NCBI GenBank assembly: GCA_036005065.1
Contig: DASYQW010000350.1
Coordinates: 1 to 36,735, forward strand
Reading direction: 5' to 3'
DNA from: Candidatus Methylomirabilota bacterium
GTDB taxonomy: Bacteria > Methylomirabilota > Methylomirabilia > Rokubacteriales > DASRDR01
DNA: 36,735 nucleotides
The notes beneath the pieces were generated by a model. That model did not search any database and was not told the DNA's origin. It worked only from the letters and a program-made list of their open reading frames with translations. Both the position numbers and the translations under genes were made by a program. Of this stretch, positions 1,376-25,708 are shown piece after piece. Each line of letters opens with the position of its first letter. Within the stretch, counting starts at the first letter, position 1.

Positions 1376-4300
1376 ATGGACCCCCTCGCGGAGCTGATTG
1401 GGGAAAGCCCGGAGATGATCGCGATCCGGGAGACGATCGGACGGTTGCTCCAGCGCCAGTCCGACGCCCGCCGGCTGCCTCCGATCCTGATCCAGGGGGA
1501 GACGGGGACGGGCAAGGGGTTGGTGGCGCGGGCGCTGCACCAGGCAGGCCCGCGGGCGTCGGCCCCGTTCGTGGACGTCAACTGCGCGGCGATCCCGGAG
1601 ACGCTGCTCGAGTCGGAGATGTTCGGGTTCGAGCGAGGAGCATTCACCGACGCGCGGCAGGCCAAGCGGGGCCTCTTTCAGGCGGCGCATCGCGGAACAC
1701 TGTTCCTGGACGAGGTGGGGCTGCTGCCCGAGGGACTGCAGGCCAAGCTGTTGAAGGTGATCGAGGAGCGCGCGGTACGGCGGCTGGGGAGCACGCGGAG
1801 CGAGCCGGTGGACGTGTGGGTGCTGACGGCGACGAGCGAGAACCTGCTGACGGCGACGCGGGAGCGACGCTTCCGGGAGGACCTCTATCACCGGCTGGCG
1901 GTGCTGACGCTCTGGCTGCCGCCGCTGCGGGACCGGGGCGGGGACGTCGGAGTGCTGGCCGAGCATTTTCTGGCGCGGGCGTGTGCCGACTACGGGCTGC
2001 CGGTGAAGCGGCTGACGGGGGCGGCGCGGGGGGCGCTGGCGGCCTACCGGTGGCCGGGGAATGTGCGGGAGCTGATCAACGCCATGGAGCGGGTGGCATT
2101 GCTGTCGGAGGGCGAGGAGGTGACGCCCGAAGGGCTGGGGCTGCCGGTGGGAGCGCCGGCGGCGCCGGACATGGCGGCCCCGCCGGCCGAGCGGACCGCG
2201 TCGCTGGACGACACGGTGGGAGAGGTGGAGCGGGCGCATCTGCTGAAGGCGCTGGAGGCGACGCACTGGAACATTTCCCGGGCGGCGGCGCGGCTGGGGC
2301 TGCCGCGGAACACGCTGCGCTACCGGATCGAGAAGTACGGGCTGGGGCGGGGGACCGCGGCGCCGCACCGCCGGGAGCGAGCCGAGCCCGCCGCGGCGCC
2401 GGCGACGCCGCCGCGGGCCACCGTGCCGATGGAGCCGCCCGCGCCGACGGTGGTGCGGTGGGAGCGCCGCCGCCTCGCGCTCCTCCGCGTCAGCGTGGTC
2501 ATGCCGGGGCCGGCGGATCCCGCCACGGACCTCAGCCGAGTCCCGGCGCTCCTGGTCGAGAAGGTGCAGAGCTTCGGGGGGCGGATCCAGGAGCTCAGTC
2601 CCGCCGGCATCGTGGCCGCCTTCGGGCTGGAGCCGGTGGAGGACGCCCCGGCGCGCGCCGCGCTCGCCGCGATCGCGATCCAGAAGGCCGCGGAGCGTGT
2701 CGCGGGCGGCGGCGGCGGACTCGGGGTCAAGATGGCGATCCACGTGGGACAGTTCATGCTGGGGCGCCTGGGCGACGCCACGATGATCGACCACGACGCC
2801 AAGCGCGAGGCCTGGGCGATCCTGGAAGAGCTGGTCCGGGACACCGAGCTGGACACGACCCTGGTCAGCAGGACCGCGGCGGCCTTCCTCGACCGTCGCT
2901 TCGAGCTGGCCCGCGCGGGCCCCGTTGCGCCGACCCGGGAGGCGTCCCGGCTGGTGGGCCTCGAGCGCACCGGGCTCAGGCCAGGGGGGCAGATGGCCCG
3001 CTTCGTCGGACGGCAGCACGACCTGGAGCTCCTGAAAAACCGCCTCGAGTCCGCGATGCGGGGACAGGGCCAGGTCGTCGGGATCGTCGGGGAGCCGGGC
3101 ATCGGCAAATCCCGGCTGCTCTTCGAGTCGCGACAGGCCCTGGCCGGCCACGAGGTGACGTACCTGGAAGGCCGTTGCGTCGCCTACGGGAGCACGATCC
3201 CGTATCTTCCGGTGCTCGACATCCTTCGCGCGAGCTGCGGCCTCGCCGAGACCGATCCGCCCGAGGTCATGAGCGCGCGGATCCACGGAAGCCTCGACGC
3301 GCTGGGGATCGATCCGGCCGAGGCCGCGCCGTATCTCCTGGACCTCCTGGGTCTGAAACGGGAGACGCACCGGCTGGCCACGCTGAGCCCCGAGGCCGTC
3401 AAGGCGCGTACGTTCGACATCCTCCGGCAGGTGAGTCTCCGGCGCAGCCGGAATGCCCCGCTCATCATCGTCATGGAGGATCTGCACTGGGTCGACCAGA
3501 CGTCCGAGGAGCTCCTGGCGTCCCTCGTCGAGATGGTGCCGGGCAGCCGGATCCTGCTGGTCACGACGTACCGGCCCGGCTATCGGCCGCCCTGGATCGA
3601 GAAGTCGTACGCGACCCAGATGGCCTTGCAGCCGCTCGCGGCCGAGGAGAGCCTGAGCGTGGTCCGGTCGGTCCTCGGAGTGGACGAGGTGCCCGACTCG
3701 GTCGGGCGGCTGATCCTGGCCAAGGCCGAGGGGAACCCCTTCTTCCTGGAGGAGCTGGCCCGGGCCGTCCGGGAGCAGGGGGGATTCGCCGTCGACTCGA
3801 GCGTCCCGGACACCATCGAAGAGGTCATCCTGGCCCGGATCGATCGCCTCAGCCTGGAAGACAAGGGTCTTCTCCAGGAAGCCTCCGTTATCGGCAAGGA
3901 CGTGCCCGTTTCCCTGGTCGAGGCGATCGCCACGCTGCCCGCCGACGCGCTCGGACAGGGGCTCCGGCGCCTCAGGGCGGCGGAGTTCCTGGTCGAGACG
4001 AGTCCCGGACCCGAGGTCGAGTACACCTTCAAGCACGCGCTGACCCACGAGGTCGCCTACGGCAGCCTCCTCCCCGGCCCGCGGCGCGACCTTCACGGGC
4101 GGATCGTGGAGACCATCGAGCGGCTCCACGCCGGCCGGCTGTCGGAGCACATCGAGCGGCTCGCCCACCACGCGCTCCGGGCCGAGGCGTGGGACAAGGC
4201 CGTGGTCTACTTGCGCCAGGCCGGCGCCAAGGCCGTCGCCCGCTCGGCCCACCGCGAGGCGGCGGTCTACTTCGAGCAGGCGCTGGAGTCGCTGAAGCGA

Positions 4301-5470
4301 CTGCCCGCCGGCCAGCCGGCGACCGAGCAGGCCATCGATCTTCGGCTCGACCTCCGCACGGCCTTGCTGCCGCTCGGCGAATTCGGGCGGATCTACGACG
4401 CCCTGCGGGAGGCGGAGGGTCTCGCCACCACGCTTGGCGATCGTCCCCGCCTGGGGCGGATCGAGGCCTATCTCAGCGACTGTTTCAGGCTGATGGGGGA
4501 TCAGAGCCGCGCCATCGAGGCTGGCCAGCGCGCCCTCACCCTCGCGCGGGAGCTCGAGGATTTCCCGCTACAGGTCGTGACCCACACCTACCTGGGTCTC
4601 ATCTACCACGGACGGGGCGATTACCGACGGGCGATCGACTTCCTGCGGTGGAACGTGGAGGCCCTCGCCGGCGACCTGAGCCGGGTGTCGTTCGACATGG
4701 CCCAGCTCCCGTCCGTCCACTCGCGCACCTGGCTGGTCTGGTGCCTGGCCGAGCTCGGCGAGTTCGAGGAGGGACGCGTTCGCGGGGAAGAGGGCGCGCA
4801 CATCGCCGAGTCCGTCGACCATCCGATGAGCCTCACCGTGGCCTATACGGGGATCGGGCGGCTGTATCTGCACCAGGGCGACCTGGCGCGGGCCACCCCC
4901 GTGCTCGAGCGAGCCCTGGAGCTGAGTCACCGGTGGGGCATCACCGTGTGGCGGCCCAACATCGTGTCGGCGCTGGGCCATGCCTACGCGCTGCAGGGGC
5001 GGCTCGTCGAGGCTCTCCCGCTCCTGGAGCAGGGCGTCGAGGCGGCCGCCACCGGGCAGTTCATGGTCGGCCAATCCCTGCGGGTGGGGTGGCTGAGTGA
5101 GGGATACCGGGCAACGGGGCGGGAGGCGGAAGCGCTGGGACTCGCCCGGACGGCCCTGGAGCTCGCCCGCGGCCACCAGGAGCGCGGCCACGAAGCCTGG
5201 GCGCTCCGGCTCATCGCCGACCTCACCTCGACGGGTGAGCCGCTCGACGCCGGGCAGGCGGAGGCGGGGTACCGTCAAGCGCTGGGGCTGGCCGAGGAAC
5301 TGGGGATGCGGCCGCTCCAGGCCCACTGCCACCTCGGTCTCAGCCGGCTCTACCGCCGGACGGCCGATCCCCCGCGCTCCGCCACCCACCGCGCCAGCGC
5401 CACCGCCCTCTTCCACCAGATGGACATGCGGTGGTGGCTGGAGCGGGCGGCCGGCGAGCCGAACGACTGA
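1376..5470 (+). CDS. sigma-54 activator fused to cyclase-like, STAND ATPase and TPR modules
   Basis: The product is 1364 residues. Residues 1-245 are an NtrC-type AAA+ domain with Walker A GETGTGKG (41-48), the sigma-54 contact loop as GAFTDA (88-93) and Walker B TLFLDE (108-113). Residues 281-322 are a Fis-type helix-turn-helix. Residues about 365-510 resemble a class III cyclase domain but lack the metal-binding aspartates and keep only an IHVGQF-like segment. From 541 a second ATPase follows, with Walker A GEPGIGKS (572-579) and Walker B IIVMED (697-702), of the AAA_16/MalT-like STAND type. The rest (about 960-1364) is TPR-like helical repeat. There is no receiver, PAS or GAF domain, so sensing probably enters through the C-terminal half (inference). 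A GGAGAGGAG lies 15 bases before the ATG. The likely target is the divergent secreted-protein gene. Confidence 0.9.
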
Positions 5471-5857: not shown

Positions 5858-6943
5858 TCAGTTAGACGGATCGGCGCGGGACTCCACGATTCCCTCGAAG
5901 AACTGGTCGGCGTGGAACAGGTCGGGCAGCGTGTCGAGGTCACGCACCATGTAGTAGTCCTCGACCACATCGTACGCCTCTCCGATGTCCACCGGCTCCC
6001 CGAACGCCAGGCGGACATAGGTGAGGGCCATGTTGTGCTTGCCGGTGAGATCGAAGATGGTCGTTCCCGACAGGAGCCGTCCGACGTTGATCTCCGTGAT
6101 GCACGGGGTCCCGCTGGCGTCCTCCTTGAGGTCCACGCTGAAAGCGCCGGTGGCTTCCGGATCCAGCGCTCGGATGGCGCCCGCGCTCACCTCGACCACG
6201 CGCGGCTCGTAGACGGTCTTGTGGAGGGCCCCGACGGAGGAGACCCCGCTGGGTCCGGCTCCGCCGCCGAGGTAGGACAGACGCTCGGTGGTCTTGATGA
6301 GGACGAGGTCGCCGTCCTTCCAGAGGCTCTGGCACGCGAAGTCCCGGCCGGGCAGGTACTCGGAGAGGGTGAAGTCGGTGGCCGGCACCCCCCGCATGTC
6401 GGCCCAGTAGCCGATCCAGGCCCGGGCCTGCTCGGCGGTCTTGATCGGGGTCGCCCCCATCGAGCCGCTGCCGGTCCGAATCCGGCACCACACCCGCGAG
6501 GACGGCGACAGTCGTCCGAAGAGCTCGTCGATACCGTCCAGGTCGGTGACCGGGTAGGTGGCCGGCGCGGGAAGCCCCCGGGATCGGAGAAAGGTCGTGA
6601 GGTCGTACTTGTCCTGGCACAGCGCGATGACCGCCGGTCGGGGCAGGAAGAGACGGCAGGGGAGCTCCTCCCGCAGCCTCGAGGCCACCCGGACGTCCGC
6701 GTCACTGTTGGGGATGAGCAGGTCGATCCGCTCGCCGGCCATGACCTGCTGGAGGCTCTCGCGATAGCCCGGCTGCGCGGGTCGGGGAACGAGATAGTTC
6801 CGATCGGCCGACGACTTCTTGAGGAGGAATCGATCGTGATGGCAGCCGACGAGGAAGAGGGACCGATCCGCGGCCCTCAGGCTGCGGATCAGGTTGTTGC
6901 TCGCGCCGGCGCCGGCGCCGGTAATGAGCAGTCGCTTTTCCAT
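5858..6943 (-). CDS. ATP-grasp domain protein (carbamoyl-phosphate synthase-like)
   Basis: The product is 361 residues. An N-terminal Rossmann-like segment LLITGAGAGASNNLI (5-19) is followed by a pre-ATP-grasp fold, DK at 111-112, a glycine loop SGSMGA (158-163), SEYLPGRDF (194-202) and a metal-binding strand ITEINVGRL with Glu284 and Asn286. This is the architecture of CarB-like stand-alone ATP-grasp enzymes, which join a carboxylate, through an acyl-phosphate, to an amine or similar nucleophile. The substrate is not predictable. The ATG at 6943 is preferred over the TTG at 7003, which falls in the -35 box of a good promoter. It heads an operon with the 67- and 53-residue genes. Confidence 0.85.
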   Translation of the reverse strand: MEKRLLITGAGAGASNNLIRSLRAADRSLFLVGCHHDRFLLKKSSADRNYLVPRPAQPGYRESLQQVMAGERIDLLIPNSDADVRVASRLREELPCRLFLPRPAVIALCQDKYDLTTFLRSRGLPAPATYPVTDLDGIDELFGRLSPSSRVWCRIRTGSGSMGATPIKTAEQARAWIGYWADMRGVPATDFTLSEYLPGRDFACQSLWKDGDLVLIKTTERLSYLGGGAGPSGVSSVGALHKTVYEPRVVEVSAGAIRALDPEATGAFSVDLKEDASGTPCITEINVGRLLSGTTIFDLTGKHNMALTYVRLAFGEPVDIGEAYDVVEDYYMVRDLDTLPDLFHADQFFEGIVESRADPSN

Positions 6944-6974
6944 TCCCCGCCCGACCAAGGGAGAAGACGGCGGG

Positions 6975-7003
6975 AGTATGGCCGCGCCACCGGAGGTTGT
7001 CAA
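6975..7003 (-). promoter_or_regulatory. sigma-70-type promoter for the ATP-grasp operon
   Basis: On the minus strand TTGACA (6998-7003) lies 17 bases before CATACT (6975-6980). The expected start is near 6968, about 25 nt before the ATG at 6943. It is divergent from the dppA promoter 75 bases away. Confidence 0.6.
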
Positions 7004-7106: not shown

Positions 7107-7166
7107 CGCCGCACCAAAGCGTTTCCAGCCAACCAGCCCGAGCCCTCGGGGATGGAGGCCAGGATC

Positions 7167-8963
7167 ATGGACGAGCGCGAGCTCCGGGAATGGCTCGATC
7201 GCGTCAGGGATGGGTCGATCAGTCGCCGCCAGTTCACCCGGATGATGCTCGGTCTCGGGCTCACGGCGCCGATGGCCGCCCAGATGCTATCGGCGGCCGG
7301 GGCGGCCCAGGCCCAGCCGAAGCCGGCCTTCACGCCGACCCGGCGGGGCGGCGGCGGCCAGCTCAAGGTCCTGTGGTGGCAGGCGCCGACCCTGCTCAAC
7401 CCGCACTTCGCCAACGGCACCAAGGACCAGGACGGCTCGCGGCTCTTCTACGAGCCACTCGCCTCGTTCGACCTCGATGGCAACCTCTACCCGGTCCTCG
7501 CCGCCGACCTGCCGAGCGTGGAGAACGGCACGGTGGCGAAGGACGGGCTGTCGGTGACGTGGAAGCTGAAGCGGGGCGTGCAGTGGCACGACGGCAGGCC
7601 CTTCACGGCCGACGACATCCTCTTCAACTGGGAGTACGCAGCCGACCCGGCGACGTCGACGGTGTGGTCGGGGCCGTACCGGGAGATCGCCCGGGTCGAC
7701 AAGCTCGACCCCTACACGGTGAAGCTCGTCTTCAAGAAGCCGACCCCCTTCTGGGCCGACGCCTTCTGCGGCAACACCGGCCAGATCATCCCCCGGCACG
7801 TCTTTGAGCCGTTCAAGGGGGCGAAGTCGCGGGAGGCCCCAGCCAACCTCAAGGCCGTCGGCACCGGGCCCTACCGGCTCGTCGAGTTCAAGCCCGGCGA
7901 CACGGTCCGGGCCGAGCTGAACCCCCACTACCACGTTCCCAACTGGCCGTTCTTCGACCAGCTCGAGCTCAAGGGGGGTGGCGACGCCGTGTCGGCGGCC
8001 CGCGCCGTCCTCCAGACCGGCGAGTTCGACTTCGCCTGGAACATGCAGGTCGAGGATGACATCCTGCGGCGCATGGAGCAGGGCGGAAAGGGCCGGATCG
8101 ACATCTCGCCCACCGGCAACATCGAGCACATCCAGCTCAACCAGAGCGACCCGTGGAAGGAGGTCGACGGCGAGCGGGCGAGCGCCCGGACTACCCATCC
8201 CTTCCTGACCGACCCGGCGGTGCGATCGGCCTTGAACCTGCTGGTCGATCGCGCGACGGTCCAGGAGCAGATCTACGGGCGCGGCGGGCAGGCGACCGCC
8301 AACTTCCTCAACGCCCCGTCCCGGTTCGCGTCGAAGAACCTGCGGTGGGAGTTCAACGTCGACAAGGCCAACCAGATCCTCGACGCTGGCGGCTGGAAGC
8401 GCGGCCCGGACGGCGTGCGGGTCAAGGACGGGAAGCGGCTCCGGGTCGTGTACCAGACCTCGATCAACGCGCCTCGCCAGAAGAACCAGGCCATCGTCAA
8501 GCAAGCGTGCGCGAAGGCCGGGATCGAGGTCGAGCTGAAGGCGGTGGTGGCGTCGGTCTTCTTCGCTTCGGACCCCGGCAACCCCGATACCCACCCGCAC
8601 TTCTACGCCGACCTCCAGATGTACAACACCACGATGACGTCGCCCGACCCCCAGCTCTTCATGCATCAGTTCGTCTCCACCGAGATCGCCGCCAAGGCCA
8701 ACAAGTGGGCCGGGCGGAACGTCACCCGGTGGCGCAACGAGGAGTACGACCGGCTCTGGAGCGCGGCCGAGAGCGAGATGGACCCCGTCAAGCGCGCCGC
8801 GATGTTCGTGCGGATGAACGACCTGTTGACCCAGAACGTGGTCGTCATCCCGGTCCTCTGGCGAAACCGGCTCCAGGCGATCTCGCATCGGCTGCGGGGC
8901 ACCGAGATCAGCGGCTGGGACTCGGGCGTCGCGCAACTGGCGTTCTGGTACCGCGAAGGCTGA
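7167..8963 (+). CDS. peptide-type ABC transporter substrate-binding protein, Tat-exported (copy 1)
   Basis: The product is 598 residues, a family 5 (DppA/OppA-like, SBP_bac_5) binding protein that would capture a peptide or similar ligand outside the membrane and deliver it to DppB/DppC-type permeases. The N-terminus has a twin-arginine signal SRRQFTRMM (19-27), a hydrophobic stretch and probable cleavage near AQA at 48-50. The family pattern is clear: WKLKRGVQWHDG, FTADDI and GTGPYRL. I chose the ATG at 7167, which matches the start of the tandem paralogue and follows GGAGG by eight bases, over the ATG at 7152. A very similar paralogue follows 19 bases after the stop. Confidence 0.9.
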   Translation: MDERELREWLDRVRDGSISRRQFTRMMLGLGLTAPMAAQMLSAAGAAQAQPKPAFTPTRRGGGGQLKVLWWQAPTLLNPHFANGTKDQDGSRLFYEPLASFDLDGNLYPVLAADLPSVENGTVAKDGLSVTWKLKRGVQWHDGRPFTADDILFNWEYAADPATSTVWSGPYREIARVDKLDPYTVKLVFKKPTPFWADAFCGNTGQIIPRHVFEPFKGAKSREAPANLKAVGTGPYRLVEFKPGDTVRAELNPHYHVPNWPFFDQLELKGGGDAVSAARAVLQTGEFDFAWNMQVEDDILRRMEQGGKGRIDISPTGNIEHIQLNQSDPWKEVDGERASARTTHPFLTDPAVRSALNLLVDRATVQEQIYGRGGQATANFLNAPSRFASKNLRWEFNVDKANQILDAGGWKRGPDGVRVKDGKRLRVVYQTSINAPRQKNQAIVKQACAKAGIEVELKAVVASVFFASDPGNPDTHPHFYADLQMYNTTMTSPDPQLFMHQFVSTEIAAKANKWAGRNVTRWRNEEYDRLWSAAESEMDPVKRAAMFVRMNDLLTQNVVVIPVLWRNRLQAISHRLRGTEISGWDSGVAQLAFWYREG

Positions 8964-8982: not shown

Positions 8983-10776
8983 ATGGACGAGCGCGAGCTG
9001 CGCGCCTGGATCGATCGGGTCAAGGACGGGACGCTGAGCCGCCGGCAGTTCACCCGGATGATGCTCGGTCTCGGGCTCACGGCGCCGATGGGCGCCCAGA
9101 TGCTGTCGGCGGCCGGGGTGGCCCAGGCCCAGCCGAAGCCGGCCTTCACGCCGACCCGGCGGGGCGGCGGCGGCGAGCTCCGCGTGCTCTGGTGGCAGGC
9201 GGTCAGCATCCTGAACTCCCACCTCGCGGTCGGCGTGAAGGACAACGACGGCTCGCGGCTCTTCAGCGAGCCGCTGGCGGCCTTCGACCCCGATGGCAAC
9301 CTGGTGCCGATCCTGGCCGCCGAGGTGCCGAGCCTCCAGAACGGTGCGGTCGCGAAGGACGGCCTGTCGGTCACCTGGAAGCTCAAGCGGGGCGTCCAGT
9401 GGCATGACGGCAAGCCCTTCACCGCCGACGACGTCATCTTTACCTGGGAATTCGCGGCCGATCCCGCGACGGCGGCCACCACCCACGGCCAGTACCGGGA
9501 CATCGCCCGGGTGGACAAGCTCGACTCCCACGCGGTCAAGGTCGTCTTCAAGAACCCCATGCCCTTCTGGCCGATCGCCTTCTGCGGAACGGCCGGGCAC
9601 ATCCTGCCCCGGCACCTGTTCGAGCCCTTCAAGGGCGCGAAGTCGCGGGAGGCGCCGGGCAACCTCAAGCCGGTCGGCACCGGGCCCTATCGCTACGTCG
9701 ACTTCAAGCCGAACGACGTCGTGCGGGCCGAGCTGAACCCGAACTATCACGTTCCCAACTGGCCCTTCTTCGACCGGATCGAGATGAAGGGGGGCGGGGA
9801 CGCGGTGTCGGCGGCGCGGGCGGTCATCCAGACCGGGGAGTACGACTTCGCCTGGAATCTCCAGGTCGAAGACGACATCCTCAAGCGAATGGAGCAGGGC
9901 GGCAAAGGCCGGGTGGACATGGTGCAGTCGGGCAACATCGAGCACGTCAACGTCAACCAGACCGATCCCTGGACGGAGGTCGACGGCGAGCGGTCGAGCG
10001 TCAAGACGAGGCACCCGCTGCTGTCCGATCCCGCGGTCCGACAGGCGCTGACCCTCCTCGTCGACCGCGGGTCCATCCAGGAGCAGGTCTACGGGCGGCT
10101 GGGCCAGGCGACGGCGAACTACCTGAACGCGCCGTCGCGGTTTCAGTCCAAGAACACGAAGTGGGAGTTCAGCATCGAGAAGGCCAACAGGATCCTGGAC
10201 GAGGCCGGCTGGAGGCGGGGCGCCGACGGCATCCGGTCCAAGGACGGCAAGCGTCTCAAGCTCGTGTTCCAGACGTCCATCAACGCCGCGCGCCAGAAGC
10301 AGCAGGCGGTCATCAAGCAGGCGGCGGCCAAAGCCGGGATCGACATGGAGCTCAAGACCGTGGTCGCCTCCGTGTTCTTCGGGTCGGATCCCGGGAACCC
10401 CGACACGATCGGCAAGTTCGGGGCCGACCTCCAGATGTATGCCTGGCAGTTCGGGGTCGATCCCCAGCGATCCATGGAGGTGTTCGCCTCGTGGGAGGTC
10501 GCCACCAAGGAAAACAAGTGGGCCGGCCGGAACACGACCCGCTGGCGCAACGAGGAGTACGACCGGCTGTGGAAGGCGGCCGACAGCGAGATGGACCCCG
10601 TCAAGCGAGCGGGACTCTTCATCCGCATGAACGACCTCCTCGTCCAGAACGTCGTCGTCGTGCCGCTCATCTGGCGGAGCTGGATCTCGGGGATCTCCAA
10701 CAAGCTCAAGGGAACCGAGATCAGCGGGTGGGACTCGAGCTTCTGGAACCTGGCGCACTGGTACCGCGAGGCCTGA
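8983..10776 (+). CDS. peptide-type ABC transporter substrate-binding protein, Tat-exported (copy 2)
   Basis: The product is 597 residues, aligned end to end with the preceding gene and identical at most positions by eye. It keeps the twin-arginine signal SRRQFTRMM, WKLKRGVQWHDG and GTGPYRY. Differences cluster in ligand-contact-type regions: the segment after GGG, and around residues 480-500 where copy 1 has an NTTMTSPDP stretch and this copy AWQFGVDP. The two may therefore bind different ligands for one shared permease pair. A GGGAGG ribosome binding site lies six bases before the ATG. A tandem duplication is the simplest origin. A stable hairpin follows the stop. Confidence 0.9.
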   Translation: MDERELRAWIDRVKDGTLSRRQFTRMMLGLGLTAPMGAQMLSAAGVAQAQPKPAFTPTRRGGGGELRVLWWQAVSILNSHLAVGVKDNDGSRLFSEPLAAFDPDGNLVPILAAEVPSLQNGAVAKDGLSVTWKLKRGVQWHDGKPFTADDVIFTWEFAADPATAATTHGQYRDIARVDKLDSHAVKVVFKNPMPFWPIAFCGTAGHILPRHLFEPFKGAKSREAPGNLKPVGTGPYRYVDFKPNDVVRAELNPNYHVPNWPFFDRIEMKGGGDAVSAARAVIQTGEYDFAWNLQVEDDILKRMEQGGKGRVDMVQSGNIEHVNVNQTDPWTEVDGERSSVKTRHPLLSDPAVRQALTLLVDRGSIQEQVYGRLGQATANYLNAPSRFQSKNTKWEFSIEKANRILDEAGWRRGADGIRSKDGKRLKLVFQTSINAARQKQQAVIKQAAAKAGIDMELKTVVASVFFGSDPGNPDTIGKFGADLQMYAWQFGVDPQRSMEVFASWEVATKENKWAGRNTTRWRNEEYDRLWKAADSEMDPVKRAGLFIRMNDLLVQNVVVVPLIWRSWISGISNKLKGTEISGWDSSFWNLAHWYREA

Positions 10777-25395: not shown

Positions 25396-25410
25396 TGGCA
25401 TCCTTCTTGC
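25396..25410 (+). promoter_or_regulatory. sigma-54-type (-24/-12) promoter for the 64-residue membrane protein
   Basis: TGGCATCCTTCTTGC matches TGGCAC-N5-TTGC with one change (C to T in the last base of the first box) and exact spacing. The predicted start is near 25422, giving a leader of about 92 nt. No sigma-70-type boxes were noticed in this 299-base gap. Confidence 0.7.
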
Positions 25411-25513
25411 TAAGCCCCTGGGTGAGTGATTCAGTTCCGCTCACGGGGGTCGCCCGAAGGGGCTCGAGTGACGGCCCCGATCGACCCCGGGGGGAGCGGC
25501 AGGAGGTGGAGCG

Positions 25514-25708
25514 ATGGGCGGTCCCTGGAGAGATCGAGGGTATGACCCACGGAGCTGGCGGCCACCCAGCCCGCGCGTCGAGGCTGCCGCGCCCTTCGAC
25601 GGATCACACTCGACTCGCGATCACCTCACCGCGGTGGTGATCGGCTATATCGCCTCGGTGCTGACCTCGATCGTGATCATGCTGACGTTTCTTCGGAACG
25701 GCTGGTAG
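25514..25708 (+). CDS. 64-residue single-span membrane protein, unknown
   Basis: The ATG follows an excellent AGGAGGTGGAG ribosome binding site. The N-terminal half is polar and rich in Arg, Pro and Ser (GGPWRDRGYDPRSWRPP). The C-terminal half is one hydrophobic helix, VVIGYIASVLTSIVIMLTFL, ending RNGW. This predicts one membrane span near the C-terminus, with little tail beyond it. It is not a signal peptide layout. It stands alone between a sigma-54-type promoter and a hairpin, so it is a self-contained unit. Function unknown; a stress or envelope role would be guesswork. Confidence 0.75.
   Translation: MGGPWRDRGYDPRSWRPPSPRVEAAAPFDGSHSTRDHLTAVVIGYIASVLTSIVIMLTFLRNGW

Follow-up and report, generated by a model that had tools for sequence, protein, structure and literature searches.

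A family of Rokubacterial sigma-54 activators with a STAND-TPR module at the rear and a probable divergent target promoter

INTRODUCTION

Activators of sigma-54 RNA polymerase are usually described with front-end sensors such as REC, PAS or GAF domains, and the most familiar exception is the placement of PRD/PTS domains at the rear. For example, LevR has an N-terminal helix-turn-helix (HTH) and PTS-controlled PRD domains. PspF is simpler still and ends after the HTH. STAND-TPR proteins are also already known among transcription factors. Specifically, MalT is a protein of this kind that uses a LuxR-type DNA-binding domain and works with the housekeeping polymerase. How unusual is a sensor at the rear of a sigma-54 activator? 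Among 490 such activators from Clostridiales, 431 have N-terminal sensors, 48 have a C-terminal PRD, and 11 have no N-terminal sensor (PMC6615313). A rear sensor is thus rare but precedented.

Here, we describe a gene that joins a sigma-54 activator to a STAND-TPR module. It lies in a 36,735-nucleotide stretch of DNA from a Candidatus Methylomirabilota bacterium (contig DASYQW010000350.1), referred to here as the window. Nearly all of the named relatives that carry the same fusion are Rokubacteria, an uncultured soil and groundwater lineage. The original prediction, made from the DNA sequence, knew of no described class with this architecture. No description of a sigma-54 activator joined to a STAND-TPR module was found in the open-access text searched, which covers the review literature incompletely. 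Rear sensors (LevR/PRD) and STAND-TPR transcription factors (MalT) are both known; it is the joining of the two that we have not found described. The fusion is likely to be a one-component sigma-54 activator in which the C-terminal STAND-TPR part senses an inducer and licenses the AAA+ half at a divergent promoter. Two much-studied ATPase switches would then be joined in one chain, and the fusion together with its divergent promoter provides a testable regulator-promoter pair with which control of an AAA+ transcription motor by a STAND switch could be probed. More broadly, this lineage appears to have put a STAND sensor on the rear of an activator and multiplied it, with copies that tend to adjoin their own sigma-54 promoter.

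ARCHITECTURE OF THE FUSION PROTEIN

The fusion gene (1376–5470, + strand) is an open frame that encodes a single protein of 1,364 aa with no internal stops. An in-frame TGA at 1367–1369, two codons (6 nt) upstream of the ATG at 1376, sets the start of the gene, and most of 45 aligned fusion homologues share this start position. Since the TGA lies so close to the only possible ATG, an N-terminal sensor is ruled out; with no N-terminal domain, the rear half is the sole candidate for a sensor.

The domains follow one another on the + strand. First comes a sigma-54 AAA+ domain (aa 7–179, 1394–1912; Pfam PF00158 Sigma54_activat, E 3e-59) with its lid (aa 185–254, 1928–2137; PF25601 AAA_lid_14), and then a Fis-type HTH (aa 281–321, 2216–2338; PF02954 HTH_8, E 6e-15). 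The middle of the protein is a domain with a class III cyclase fold (aa ~361–535, 2456–2980). Next is a STAND nucleotide-binding domain with the Walker A motif GEPGIGKS (aa 542–728, 2999–3559; PF13191 AAA_16, E 1e-27). The remainder (aa 729–1364, 3560–5467) consists of a helical domain, a winged helix, an arm and a TPR sensor, assigned from the structure model and from Pfam TPR matches, the best stretches of which lie between aa 1027 and 1230. Pfam and the structure models agree on the order that had been read from the sequence, namely a sigma-54 AAA+ domain, Fis HTH, cyclase-like domain, second ATPase and TPRs in one frame. They also uphold the claim that the chain holds two differing ATPase modules (Sigma54_activat and AAA_16), each with its motif set intact. 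The accompanying premise that sigma-54 activators normally sense at the N-terminus holds for 431 of the 490 Clostridiales proteins and fails for the 48 with a C-terminal PRD, which are of the LevR type (PMC6615313).

The AAA+ domain has a Walker A motif (GETGTGKG), a sigma-54 loop (GAFTDA), a Walker B motif (FLDEVG) and an arginine-finger region (FREDLYHRL); both Walker motifs and the arginine-finger region are kept across the 45 homologues. In all 45 fusions, the sigma-54 contact loop departs from GAFTGA and has the sequence GAFTDA, making them variant members of the sigma-54 enhancer-binding proteins (bEBPs). This departure is a point against the activator reading, although the same variant is present in one unfused activator of the same genome. 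Among the Clostridiales activators, 355 of 490 have the exact GAFTGA sequence (PMC6615313).

How does the fusion compare with described sigma-54 activators? As in PspF-type proteins, the AAA+ domain is at the very N-terminus and is followed by the HTH, but the fusion adds ~1,040 residues beyond this point. As in LevR-type (PRD) proteins, the candidate sensor is C-terminal to the AAA+ domain. In contrast to the fusion, LevR lacks a STAND ATPase, a cyclase fold and TPRs, and no PRD or PTS domain is found among the best 25 Pfam matches listed for the fusion. The top NCBIfam match is TIGR03903, "TOMM system kinase/cyclase fusion protein," which covers aa 413–1319 and, at 301.8 bits, stays far short of its 705.75-bit cut-off; going by that name, a member would carry a kinase domain, but no such domain was found in the fusion.

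THE MIDDLE DOMAIN IS A PSEUDO-CYCLASE

Pfam gives no match to the cyclase-like part (~361–535) of the window protein, and Guanylate_cyc weakly matches 23 of 45 homologous segments (best E 7e-5). The fold is clearer from structure. In a PDB search, an AlphaFold model of aa 355–540 (pLDDT 86) hit class III cyclases, the top match being the catalytic domain of Rv1625c (E 4e-11, TM 0.72). A working adenylate or guanylate cyclase would link cyclic-nucleotide output to sigma-54 activation, and both the fold and the retention of the catalytic motifs by unfused relatives in the same genome are in keeping with such an enzyme. We nevertheless consider this very improbable. When the 45 fusions were aligned with seven unfused cyclase-containing relatives from the same genome, the second metal-binding Asp was present in none of the fusions and the first in only six (gone in 39/45), while all seven unfused relatives have both. 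An active class III cyclase is rejected because of this loss of metal ligands. Thus, the cyclase-like domain of the original prediction survives as a class III fold by model, without the catalytic Asp pair throughout the family, and judged by these residues the middle domain is a pseudo-cyclase family-wide.

THE REAR HALF RESEMBLES STAND PROTEINS WITH TPR SENSORS

A model of aa 540–1364 (pLDDT 91) is mostly helical and includes a long array of helical repeats that is predicted with high confidence. Its top PDB match is PH0952 (6MFV; E 4e-15), a solved STAND protein with a TPR sensor (PMC6468293). The TM-score is just 0.31 over the whole chain, which suggests that the domains are placed differently from those in 6MFV. 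Taken together, the AAA_16 match, the model and the 6MFV match identify an NBD-HD-WHD core followed by an arm and TPR repeats, that is, a STAND protein with a TPR sensor. This is the organization of MalT and PH0952, with 6MFV as the closest solved fold. The fusion differs from MalT in using an AAA+ motor for sigma-54 as its effector.

Similar rear halves occur elsewhere in the same genome on other fronts. Five proteins (C325, C230, C27, C65 and C402) have the order zinc ribbon, class III cyclase, AAA_16 and TPR, with rear halves that are ~30%–44% identical to that of the fusion. These proteins keep the cyclase metal Asp, and zinc-ribbon-like CxxC motifs replace the sigma-54 motor and HTH. Three others (C43, C267 and C281) resemble the fusion in that a front of the transcription-factor type precedes their STAND-TPR part; this front is BTAD (SARP-like), an assignment made by reading the sequence rather than by domain search, and they have no sigma-54 motor.

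Does the STAND half still use nucleotide? The Walker A and Walker B motifs are conserved among fusion homologues, and the G, K, S and R of the Walker A GKSR are invariant in an alignment of 33 sequences (A3). This invariance argues for a working nucleotide switch. It also bears on a different possibility, in which the rear half would act as a dominant repressor or as a docking site for proteins, with a partner that binds the TPRs and a STAND nucleotide cycle that is vestigial. Protein binding is common for TPR arrays, the cyclase domain of the same chain has lost catalysis, and MalT itself is kept in an inactive state by partner proteins, MalY among them (PMC10427625). Nonetheless, the conserved Walker motifs and the invariant GKSR point to nucleotide use, and we regard a purely repressing or docking role as the less likely reading. 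A nucleotide-driven STAND switch is the reading taken up below.

THE FUSION IS A FAMILY LARGELY CONFINED TO ROKUBACTERIA

The window comes from a draft assembly of 419 contigs, so the fusion of two genes by an assembly or frameshift artefact has to be considered. This genome has four fusions. One of the four is split between contigs C329 and C239, which overlap by exactly 141 nt (the end of L018 and the start of L024), likely reflecting a missed assembly join. A wider search used a 396-residue query that starts where the AAA+ domain ends and extends to the Walker A motif of the STAND ATPase. It returned 76 matched stretches from 41 of the 95 genomes and 23 of the 33 genera of the class; 67 of the 76 cover the full query, and the other nine are partial. 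The full-span homologues usually lie in open frames of ~1,350–1,500 aa in many separate assemblies, and they are conserved through the junction. An assembly join or a missing stop is excluded on this basis, and we give an artefact almost no credence.

Nearly all of the named relatives with the fusion are Candidatus Rokuibacteriota, and two are Methylomirabilota. On this basis, the window most likely comes from a Rokubacterium. Two matches fall outside this lineage: one in a Myxococcales bin (nzgw250; L108) and one in a Chloroflexi bin (CF_170; L111). No fusion was found in 140 further genomes of one of these phyla or in 200 of the other. In a tree of the fusions that takes in just three unfused relatives, L108 is nested within Rokubacterial sequences, while L111 forms a pair with a sequence from Rokubacteria; the neighbor families of L108 also match those of the Rokubacteria. 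Because of these tree positions, the neighbors of L108 and the empty genomes, a wider taxonomic spread is a poorer explanation than mis-binned Rokubacterial contigs, most clearly for L108, while L111 may carry the fusion through transfer. As far as sampled, the fusion is confined essentially to Methylomirabilota/Rokubacteria. The picture of a real fusion with two ATPases and a rear-half sensor candidate has held, whereas the protein is not a one-off, its rear sensor is not unprecedented, and its cyclase is not a working one.

A CONSERVED DIVERGENT SIGMA-54 PROMOTER

At 45 fusion loci, both strands of the upstream 250 bp were searched for the strict sigma-54 pattern TGG[CT][ACT][CT]N5TTGC. The divergent strand has 26 sites, which are near-consensus (TGGYAY-N5-TTGC), and the same strand has two, against 0.1–0.15 expected per strand; a background computed over all loci, into which the sites themselves were counted, still predicts just 0.36 per strand. 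Because of the kinship among the loci, the 26 sites do not amount to 26 independent events. The position of the sites is also conserved, with 22 of the divergent sites at −108 to −126 from the fusion start, and in many loci Shine-Dalgarno-like sequences and gene starts lie downstream of the divergent promoter. No strict site was found upstream of nine unfused STAND relatives. In the window, the divergent promoter TGGCACTGCCGTTGCG (1189–1204, − strand) has the canonical GG-N10-GC form; the window holds one further site of this type. The divergent promoter lies at −172 relative to the fusion start, outside the usual spacing.

A strong match to rpoN was found in the window's genome, which has 43 strict sigma-54 elements, compared with 1 for a reversed control pattern. 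Co-occurrence of the fusion with rpoN was considered as evidence and tells us nothing, since 91 of the 95 genomes of the class carry rpoN.

The conserved site suggests that the fusion probably fires the adjoining divergent promoter. Could the fusion instead work mainly at other promoters, with the divergent promoter fired by another activator or shared with one? The 43 elements and the many other sigma-54 activator matches in the genome would accommodate this, as would the ~17 of 45 loci without a strict site, some of which have upstream regions cut by contig edges and some of which have full flanks. Set against this are the strong enrichment and fixed spacing of the divergent site, its absence beside the nine unfused relatives, and, in many homologues, the conserved elements that lie in the interval between the starts. 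Action mainly elsewhere therefore strikes us as improbable, and activation of the neighboring promoter is the better reading.

What are these conserved elements? First, ~26 of 43 upstream regions have a −10-like hexamer between −20 and −11, and in the window, the −10-like TAAGAT (1361–1366, + strand) is a putative housekeeping promoter of the fusion. TAAGAT-type elements end ~9 nt before the start codon at many loci (1361–1378 in the window). The position of the element suggests near-leaderless transcripts, and the fusion is probably transcribed from its own sigma-70-like promoter. Second, GGTGG is found in 29 of 43 upstream regions, mainly at −70 to −50, and several loci have GGTGGTCAA-N3-TTGAACACC-type palindromes in the same zone. 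These are candidate activator sites. In the window, neither such palindromes nor the GGTGG/GGTCAA elements that many homologues have upstream are evident. A weak candidate between the two promoters of the window is the palindrome TTCGGC-GATTGT-GCCGAA (1275–1292), which alone is not beyond chance. A general inverted-repeat test upstream of the fusions was not significant (mean best score 5.0, compared with 4.7 ± 0.9), so the candidates given here are limited to particular elements that recur.

A MODEL FOR GATING BY THE STAND MODULE

How might the two halves work together? The best explanation of the architecture is that the STAND half gates sigma-54 activation, a reading backed by the conservation of the divergent promoter. 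The gating step, the direction in which it acts and the inducer itself are all inferred from MalT and PH0952, in which the ADP-bound state is the resting state (PMC6468293). The fusion would be expressed from its own sigma-70-like, near-leaderless promoter, and its HTH would bind intergenic sites between the divergent promoters. At rest, the pseudo-cyclase, STAND ATPase and TPR array would keep the protein inactive. Binding of an inducer at the TPRs or arm would allow the STAND core to exchange ADP for ATP and to self-associate, gathering the N-terminal AAA+ domains into a hexamer. This hexamer would then remodel sigma-54 RNA polymerase at the divergent −24/−12 promoter, switching on the neighboring gene, often one for a small exported or membrane protein.

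A more specific proposal can be put forward tentatively. The inducer-driven STAND hub may template the sigma-54 AAA+ hexamer, with the pseudo-cyclase as a fixed dimerizing or nucleotide-binding hinge, and Rokubacteria may use a set of paralogous switches that are each paired with a neighboring divergent sigma-54 target of their own. If so, a switch of the Apaf/MalT type would directly build a transcription motor.

NEIGHBORING GENES AND LIKELY TARGETS

The putative target in the window is a divergent gene (576–1121, − strand) encoding a 181-aa protein, termed family A here. Its ATG at 1121 is behind GGGGAGGGAG, ~70–80 bp downstream of the sigma-54 site (1204–1189, − strand). The protein has an N-terminal hydrophobic stretch and no Pfam match, and it is probably exported or membrane-anchored. 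Homologues of family A adjoin 20 fusions. At other loci, the divergent gene differs, encoding lipoprotein-like proteins, a receiver-domain protein or others. Judging from this variation, each copy of the fusion seems to have its own neighboring target.

On the other side of the fusion is a convergent ATP-grasp/PylC-like gene (5858–7003, − strand; family B), which is a conserved neighbor of 17 fusions; a family B homologue has weak PylC-like_N and ATP-grasp_3 matches, under the Pfam cut-offs. In part of the family (L059–L098), genes for a C39-like peptidase, a small lipoprotein-like protein, an ATP-grasp/PylC-like protein and an ~400-aa HExxH protein adjoin the fusion, which suggests a conserved locus whose functions are exported or peptide-modifying.

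The second sigma-54-type promoter in the window, TGGCATCCTTCTTGCT (25396–25411, + strand), precedes an ORF for a 64-aa protein with one hydrophobic C-terminal stretch (25514–25708, + strand). An ORF for a paralogue of this protein, 63% identical, immediately follows the sigma-54 promoter that diverges from the C185 fusion. Members of one small-protein family thus follow two separate sigma-54 sites in this genome, and a third copy of the family is on C258. Separately, the window has two closely alike genes in tandem (7152–8963 and 8983–10776), with near-identical N-termini in their products. These are apparently substrate-binding proteins of ABC peptide transporters, and permease-like genes come next.
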